Assembly (NCBI GenBank): GCA_903919125.1
Contig: CAIXGS010000074.1
Span: 1-39,001, forward strand
Length of the DNA: 39,001 nt
Direction: 5' to 3'
Origin: an uncultured Spartobacteria bacterium
GTDB taxonomy: Bacteria > Verrucomicrobiota > Verrucomicrobiia > Chthoniobacterales > Chthoniobacteraceae
Both the position numbers and the translations under genes were made by a program. This document shows, in pieces, positions 191 to 38,865 of this stretch. Position 1 is the stretch's first letter; every line of letters begins with the position of its first letter. The notes under the pieces are model-generated. The model was not told the origin of the DNA. It worked only from the letters and a program-made list of their open reading frames with translations, and did not search any database.

Positions 191-665
191 AATTGCTTCG
201 TTGAGCCACCCAAAGTCGTCGTGGGGATGCTGCGATTTGTCATGCCGGAGGCATTAAAGCCAATTGCCGGTGGTTGAGGAGCGACGCGACGACACCACCG
301 GTTTCTGAGGCAGAAACCGCCCGCATCCCAAGGGGATGGCAGCGGCGTCGCATCTCAGGCACAGCAGACAATTATTTGTGGGAAACAGGGGGTGCGTCAG
401 TGCGAAATAACAATAGCCCAGCAGCCTGGGTGACTGGCATCCCGCGGGATGCTCTGTGTTTTTTACCCCAACCGGTGGTGTCGCTTCGCTCAACCACCGG
501 CAAATGGCCTCGATGCCTCCGGCATCGGAACTGTCATTCACACCCTGACTGCTTCCGCTCGGCCTGATGGGCAAACCACAGAAACAACCGAAGCACTAAA
601 GCCCACTGGAAATTTACGACCGAACAAGCCCAGATAAAGCTCAAGCGTCATTACCCAACAAATTA
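191..665. repeat. Long structured repeat, left copy, with nested inverted repeats
   Basis: This noncoding stretch is repeated in the same orientation at 38446-38865 with high identity. It is built of nested inverted repeats: ATGCCGGAGGCAT (242-254) against ATGCCTCCGGCAT (513-525), and the arm at 266-302 against the arm at 470-501 (GCCGGTGG..ACCACCGGT against ACCGGTGG..CCACCGGC). Small hairpins lie inside, such as GGTTTCT/AGAAACC near 300-318 and the perfect 16-base palindrome at 437-452. About 60 bases near the apex (roughly 371-425) are absent from the right copy. Both strands contain open frames here, but they translate palindromes and look spurious. It resembles large REP/BIME-like elements; its function is unknown. 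Confidence 0.75.
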
Positions 666-38261: not shown

Positions 38262-38445
38262 GGCGTTTTCTTCGCAGGGAGGAGAGGGAAAGGCCAGCGT
38301 CAGAGTGAGAAAAATTTGTGCGACTTCACTCCTTGTGATGCGAGCTGTTGAACGTTTTGCCGAGGAGCTCTAGTCGGCAGTGAGGGCTAATTTGGCGGTT
38401 CTGGCGACGCCGCGTTGAACGAGGGCGATTGGTGTTTTGCCGATG

Positions 38446-38865
38446 AATTGCTTCGGCGAGCTACCCAAAGTCGTCGTGGGGATGCTGCGGTTGGTCATGC
38501 CGGAGGCATGAAAGCCAATTGCCGGTGGTTGAGGAGCGACGCGACGACACCACCGGTTTGTCAGACCGAAACCGCCCGCATCCCAAGGGGATGGCAGCTG
38601 CGTCGCATCTCAGGCACATCAGCATGGGTGACTGGTATCCCGACGGGATGCTCTATGTTTTTTAGCCTATCCGGTGGTGTCGCTTCGCTCAACCACCGGC
38701 AAATGGCCTCGATGCCTCCGGCATCGGAACTGTCATTCGCAGCCTCACTGCTTCTGCTTGGCCTCATGGGCAGACGACAGAAGCGATGGAAGCACTAAAA
38801 TCCATTGGCAATTTACGACCGGACAAGCTCGGATAAAGCTCAAGTACTTCTACCCAATAAATTAT
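38446..38865. repeat. Long structured repeat, right copy
   Basis: This is the second copy of the element at 191-665, in the same orientation, highly similar from AATTGCTTCG to TACCCAATAAATTA. The nested arms (GCCGGTGG..ACCACCGG and CCGGTGG..CCACCGGC, plus ATGCCGGAGGCAT and ATGCCTCCGGCAT) are kept, while the roughly 60 bases near the apex of the left copy are absent. Conserved pairing arms with a variable apex point to selection or a mechanism acting on the folded form. Confidence 0.75.

Follow-up and report, generated by a model that had tools for sequence, protein, structure and literature searches.

The 39,001-nucleotide stretch analyzed here (the window; contig CAIXGS010000074.1 of the uncultured Spartobacteria bacterium assembly GCA_903919125.1) carries a large nested palindrome near each of its ends. 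What kind of element is this, and what could have placed it there? We addressed these questions by following the repeat through the genome of the window organism and those of its relatives.

Copies and extent of the element

A first-pass annotation of the window had described two copies of the repeat with the same order and orientation, and sequence comparison bore this out. The copies themselves stood, although the boundaries that it gave (191-665 and 38446-38865) did not: copy 2 starts at about 38373, and copy 1 reaches right to about 680 (i.e., the end of an outer terminal inverted repeat). Likewise, the difference of about 60 bases at the apex is real (~57 bases) but was read in the wrong direction, the bases not being extra in the left copy but deleted in copy 2 and kept in nearly all other genomic copies. 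The statement that the repeat is present twice holds within the window only. A search of the 4.3-Mb window genome (a draft, 95% complete), extended to relatives as the annotation had advised, revealed a dispersed family of many copies (~24 near-full copies plus fragments in the window genome, and at least 16 tnpA-less copies in one relative, G012). No match was obtained when a plasmid collection was searched with the repeat.

The two window copies lie at both ends of one contig (C74, i.e., the whole window), and further family copies were located at the ends of contigs C3, C21 (twice), C29, C31, C69, and C79. Because several copies sit at contig ends, the true copy number is probably under-counted, and assembly breaks at repeats are part of the reason why the window has two. 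The features of the window are as follows, with the evidence in parentheses.

188-680, + strand: copy 1 of the element, without the left outer end and with the right outer inverted-repeat end (alignment of genomic copies)
242-254, + strand: hairpin H1, ATGCCGGAGGCAT (sequence pairing, copy alignment)
266-301, + strand: main hairpin H2, GCCGGTGGT..ACCACCGG, 8-bp stem (arm pairing, hairpin pattern scan)
324-338, + strand: hairpin H3, CATCCC..GGGATG (sequence pairing, copy alignment)
365-421, + strand: spacer at the center of the core, lost by deletion from copy 2 and free of TnpA remnants (alignment, HMM search)
437-452, + strand: hairpin H4, GCATCCCGCGGGATGC, mirror of H3 (sequence pairing, copy alignment)
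472-501, - strand: main hairpin H5, mirror of H2 (arm pairing, hairpin pattern scan)
512-526, + strand: hairpin H6, GATGCCTCCGGCATC, mirror of H1 (sequence pairing, copy alignment)
666-680, - strand: right-hand outer terminal inverted repeat of copy 1 (CTAGGCAGTGATGTC when read on the minus strand; its TAG is the esterase stop)
677-1828, - strand: esterase gene (PF00756), 3' end cut and re-terminated by copy 1 (Pfam, comparison with relatives)
38373-38865, + strand: copy 2 of the element (genomic copy search, alignment, outer-repeat comparison)
38373-38400, + strand: left-hand outer terminal inverted repeat of copy 2, TAGTCGGCAGTGAGGGCTAATTTGGCGG (outer-repeat comparison)
38521-38556, + strand: H2 of copy 2 (hairpin pattern scan)
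38671-38700, - strand: H5 of copy 2 (hairpin pattern scan)

Anatomy and folding of the core

The element core (~202-531) comprises six hairpins in the mirror order H1-H2-H3-spacer-H4-H5-H6, in which H2 can also be written CCGGTGGT..ACCACCGG. The pairing arms had been correctly located by the first-pass annotation: in copy 1, 242-278 and 489-525 are 89% complementary, and 290-303 and 470-483 are 100% complementary. The equivalent arms in copy 2 are 38497-38533/38688-38724 and 38545-38556/38671-38682. The predicted folding into a branched structure was upheld by stabilities far beyond those of shuffled sequences, with z-scores of -6.8 for 202-531 folded as DNA and -6.0 for 38457-38730 folded as RNA (no shuffle was as stable in either case). 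The hairpin loops are long, and the feet of H2 and H5 in the window copies read ATTG and TTTG (TTAG in the type-b copies described below).

An exact pattern for H2-type hairpins matched 18 times in the window genome and 158 times in G012 (in the latter mostly as inverted pairs), while a reversed control pattern had 0 matches in either genome. In named genomes, the exact-pattern scan identified five contigs, four of them labeled Verrucomicrobia or Opitutus and the fifth a Planctomycetaceae metagenome-assembled genome (MAG).

Insertion sites

The insertion of copy 1 is at the 3' end of the esterase gene, whose stop codon in the window is the terminal TAG of the element. Eight relatives from the same genus encode an esterase that is conserved up to residue 383 and runs on for several more codons, and the repeat is absent from the 1.5 kb downstream of the gene in all eight. 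Given that these esterases run past the insertion point, the element's own TAG supplies the stop there; the same comparison weakens the notion of native TAG stops as targets of the element. The element's TAG closes a long open frame in 10 of the 32 ends considered, versus 2 of 64 in the other frames (Fisher p = 0.0002, with the 170-codon limit for long open frames chosen after inspection of the data). Among these frames are recognizable genes (e.g., one at C44 that, from a reading of its sequence, is a putative MFS-like transporter). Several copies face the 3' ends of genes. The G009 locus that matches the insertion at C76 is without the element, its intergenic region being too diverged for a base-precise empty site; no empty site could be read to base precision on both sides.

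The same arms flank Y1 transposase genes in relatives

The window genome and those of relatives were searched for Y1_Tnp domains, and the surroundings of the matches were then compared with the element core. In three genomes from other genera of the same family (G012:C67, G015:C26, and G013:C37), an IS200-like Y1 tnpA gene is flanked on both sides by CCGGTGGT-type triple-hairpin arms, with the hairpin order and mirror orientation of the window element. G012 contains one tnpA-bearing locus of this arm type, together with the tnpA-less copies counted above, which consist of a left arm, ~14 to 20 bp, and a right arm. The same genome carries one tnpA of each stem type, each with its own arms (loci L111 and L126). 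At the G013 locus (L113, 1900-2150), the right arm is followed by a second, near-identical arm copy in tandem.

The Y1_Tnp search did not detect a cognate TnpA (i.e., one of the CCGG-stem clade) in the 95% complete window draft; the Y---Q--HH TnpA that this genome encodes at C49 belongs to the other clade of the TnpA tree. An HMM search inside 14 genomic copies detected no decayed tnpA (positive control, 3.6e-80).

Transposase class and generality of the arms

The TnpA proteins of the relatives matched PF01797, the NCBI IS200/IS605 transposase model, and solved transposase structures. They have a Y1_Tnp domain with the HuH motif and the Y---Q--HH motif that defines TnpA-Y1 subclass 1.2 (PMC6006769). 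In the description of this subclass (Quentin et al. 2018, PMC6006769), its members generally lack typical terminal secondary structures and come mostly from Cyanobacteria and Bacteroidetes. Among 288 genomes sampled from the phylum, 63 carried a Y---Q--HH tnpA gene.

Inverted arms were assessed at 41 tnpA loci by aligning the left flank to the reverse complement of the right flank. The inverted-arm score exceeded the maximum of the shuffled control at 33 of these loci; with a harder control (flanks swapped in from other loci), 27 loci were at or below 5%. AGCC-footed perfect stems, nearly always of 8 bp, were found in 42 of 79 flanks of 40 loci, compared with 0.2% in shuffles and six in the opposite orientation, perfect pairing being the selection rule so that the evidence lies in the excess over shuffles. 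At least one flank carried such a hairpin at 31 of the 40 loci. The feet were TTAG (12), CCAG (12), ATAG (7), and GTAG (6 of 43). Across the loci there were 15 different stem sequences, which differ between subfamilies yet stay paired. Mapped on the TnpA tree, stem type (CCGG or other) changes once; shuffles needed 9.8 changes on average, and none of 500 came as low.

Covariation was examined, as the first-pass annotation had proposed, on the G012 copies by a test without selection for pairing: 98.5% of cells were paired, and both partners had changed in seven pairs (a level that none of 500 shuffles reached), these compensatory changes falling mostly in the small hairpins while the main stem was nearly invariant. 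The annotation had named few copies and a lack of covariation as grounds for rejecting an element of this kind; what we found was a family of about two dozen copies, compensatory changes in G012, and stems that remain paired across tnpA subfamilies.

A probable REPIN-like element of an IS200-like transposon

We consider the repeat to be, more likely than not, a nonautonomous REPIN-like mobile element formed by the inverted three-hairpin arms of an IS200-like TnpA-Y1 transposon. The tnpA gene would have been replaced by a spacer of 50 to 130 bp between the arms. A Y1 HuH TnpA acting in trans would bind the hairpins when the DNA is single-stranded and nick beside the hairpin foot; the element would then be excised with rejoining of the ends and be inserted elsewhere. 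Most insertions that persist would be at the ends of genes, which can use the terminal TAG of the element as their stop codon. We infer trans-mobilization, and the steps of this mechanism, from what is known of the transposase family (IS200/IS605 and RAYT enzymes).

Some observations count against this explanation. The feet in the window are ATTG and TTTG where most tnpA-flanking hairpins have NNAG. In addition, no TnpA of the matching clade was detected in the window genome and the outer repeat is absent from L111, from which it follows that either the nonautonomous elements acquired their own ends or another transposase moves them. The suggestion of the first-pass annotation that the repeat is REP/BIME-like and moved by a transposase encoded elsewhere found support in kind (the arms flank a Y1 HuH transposase gene in relatives, and stem type follows the TnpA tree). 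The feet and long loops set the repeat apart from a canonical GTAG REP, and the cognate transposase was not found in the window genome.

Outer repeats around the hairpin core

In the window genome, the hairpin core occurs in two wrappers. Type a, which includes both window copies, has the outer inverted repeat TAGTAGGCAGTGAGGTCTAATTTG. Type b has no such repeat, and its flanks carry GGGGACAGACACTT, a class of motif reported around TIRYT genes (PMC3733652). The tnpA-less copies have outer inverted repeats that differ between genomes (TAGTAGGCAGTGAGGTC in the window genome and TAGGCTGAATCGACATTCA in G012). Because such repeats are missing from the tnpA-bearing locus L111 of G012, the tnpA-less copies are not plain tnpA deletions.

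These repeats raise a second possibility, which we regard as the less likely one, that the element is a conventional MITE whose outer terminal inverted repeats are the mobile ends for another (e.g., DDE) transposase, with the hairpin core as a passenger. It would fit the absence of the outer repeat from the tnpA-bearing locus, the different but equally regular outer repeat of the G012 copies, and two G009 copies that lost exactly the H5-H6 block, with identical breakpoints and differing outer ends, but kept their TAGTAGGCAGTGAGGTC ends. The exact loss in the latter copies also fits the cutting out of a defined unit. However, no target-site duplication was readable in the copies read, the left and right flanking bases not matching, and no transposase gene lay between two such ends at the terminal-repeat hits inspected (C8, C4, C27, and C44; the one at C4:128288 looks like a chance match). 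Moreover, type-b copies in the same genome are flanked by GGGGACAG and not by the outer repeat, so that the shared mobile part is the hairpin core.

Several other features of the surroundings were recorded. The type-a outer repeat (38373-38400 and equivalents) closes all three inward reading frames with stop codons within ~20 bases; insertion in a gene therefore adds at most a few residues. Repeats of the GGGGACAGACACTT and CTTAACTAAGTGCCATT types surround many copies (L027-L045, type b; L068, L069, and L070), and GGGGACAG also occurs around other Y1 genes of the window genome (C36 and C69); a second, TIRYT-like family is nested with the hairpin family. At the contig start, a group II intron domain (Rfam RF00029) occupies 39-126, and this intron end recurs close to a repeat copy on C17 (L049, 69-108); in both places the intron seems to interrupt the stem of a further palindromic repeat (..GCGGAGC/GCTCCGCG..). 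The other contig end (38880-39001) has a palindromic repeat of a different kind, GCGGAGCTAGGGCTCCGC..CTCCCAGG, which is also inserted in the outer repeat TAGTAGGCAGTGAGGTC at C8 (L134, the contig end of G000:C8).

RNA and coding alternatives

That the repeat is a structured regulatory or noncoding RNA (a terminator or mRNA stabilizer) kept for its transcript, as the first-pass annotation had also suggested, is improbable. The very stable fold and the copies facing gene 3' ends are what such an RNA would show, but palindromic DNA folds on either strand, the flanks vary, and the same hairpins are found beside a transposase gene. Rfam searches at gathering and relaxed thresholds gave no match to the repeat and only the group II intron outside it.

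Still less credible is decayed coding sequence, the other ground for rejection named by the annotation: the left extension of type-a copies (L027, L029, L033, and L058), which may be a captured gene end, resembles a protein tail when read outward (..GKTPIALVQRGVARTVKLDLTAY and a stop) and is open in several copies, but it has stops and frameshifts in others, a weak and unconvincing third-position bias (variable columns by codon position, 23/23/30), only weak matches beyond the repeat copies, no Pfam match on ORFs crossing the repeats, and no bearing on the hairpin core, which holds no TnpA remnant.

Relation to known systems and implications

The REPIN-like reading can be placed against the systems already described. 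Like REPINs and BIMEs (REP doublets mobilized by RAYT; PMC3116915, PMC3733652), the elements are inverted palindromic pairs, nonautonomous, dispersed, and mostly beside genes, with units that also flank a Y1 HuH transposase gene (seen in G012, G015, and G013, and not found in the window draft); as in a REPIN, two inverted palindromic units form one repeated unit. They differ in having three hairpins per arm (~200 to 490 bp per element), an outer inverted repeat, loops longer than the 2 to 5 nt of short REPs, and an NNAG foot (TTAG, CCAG, or ATAG, with GTAG in the minority given above) in place of a fixed GTAG/GTGG 0 to 2 nt 5' of the hairpin. Their transposase, furthermore, is of IS200-like subclass 1.2 and not a class 2 TnpA-REP.

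The transposases resemble subclass 1.2 TnpA-Y1 (PMC6006769) in the Y---Q--HH motif, the length of ~150 amino acids, and the one to six copies per genome. Unlike the subclass as described, they have Verrucomicrobiota hosts and mirrored hairpin arms that flank the gene and also occur without it. TIRYTs/TIRtrons (Di Nocera et al. 2013, PMC3733652) are similar in that tyrosine transposase genes are flanked by inverted repeats, some of which are double palindromes, and that TIR families also reside elsewhere in the genome; however, their GGGGWSAS motif is absent from the window copies, flanking instead the type-b copies and, as GGGGACAG, the Y1 genes at C36 and C69. With MITEs of DDE insertion sequences the window element shares its short, gene-less form and terminal inverted repeats; it differs in lacking a detectable target-site duplication and in that the transposase associated with its hairpin core is an HuH rather than a DDE enzyme. 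REPINs, TIRtrons, and IS200-like transposons are thus known, whereas we found no description of a repeat family tied to a subclass 1.2 TnpA with a three-hairpin arm and, in open-licence PMC text, no paper linking this subclass to palindromic repeats.

On balance, we think it likely that the subclass 1.2 TnpA-Y1 proteins of Verrucomicrobiota are the transposases of a widespread REPIN-like system, in which each subfamily would recognize its own 8-bp stem behind an AG foot in a three-hairpin arm and spawn large tnpA-less populations such as the window repeat. Such a system would identify a DNA substrate for transposases of a subclass in which terminal hairpins were said to be generally lacking, and would offer many natural transposase/stem pairs for reading hairpin-stem recognition by HuH enzymes. 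It would also explain the contig breaks at repeats, and the short spurious ORFs called across them, in genomes of this kind.
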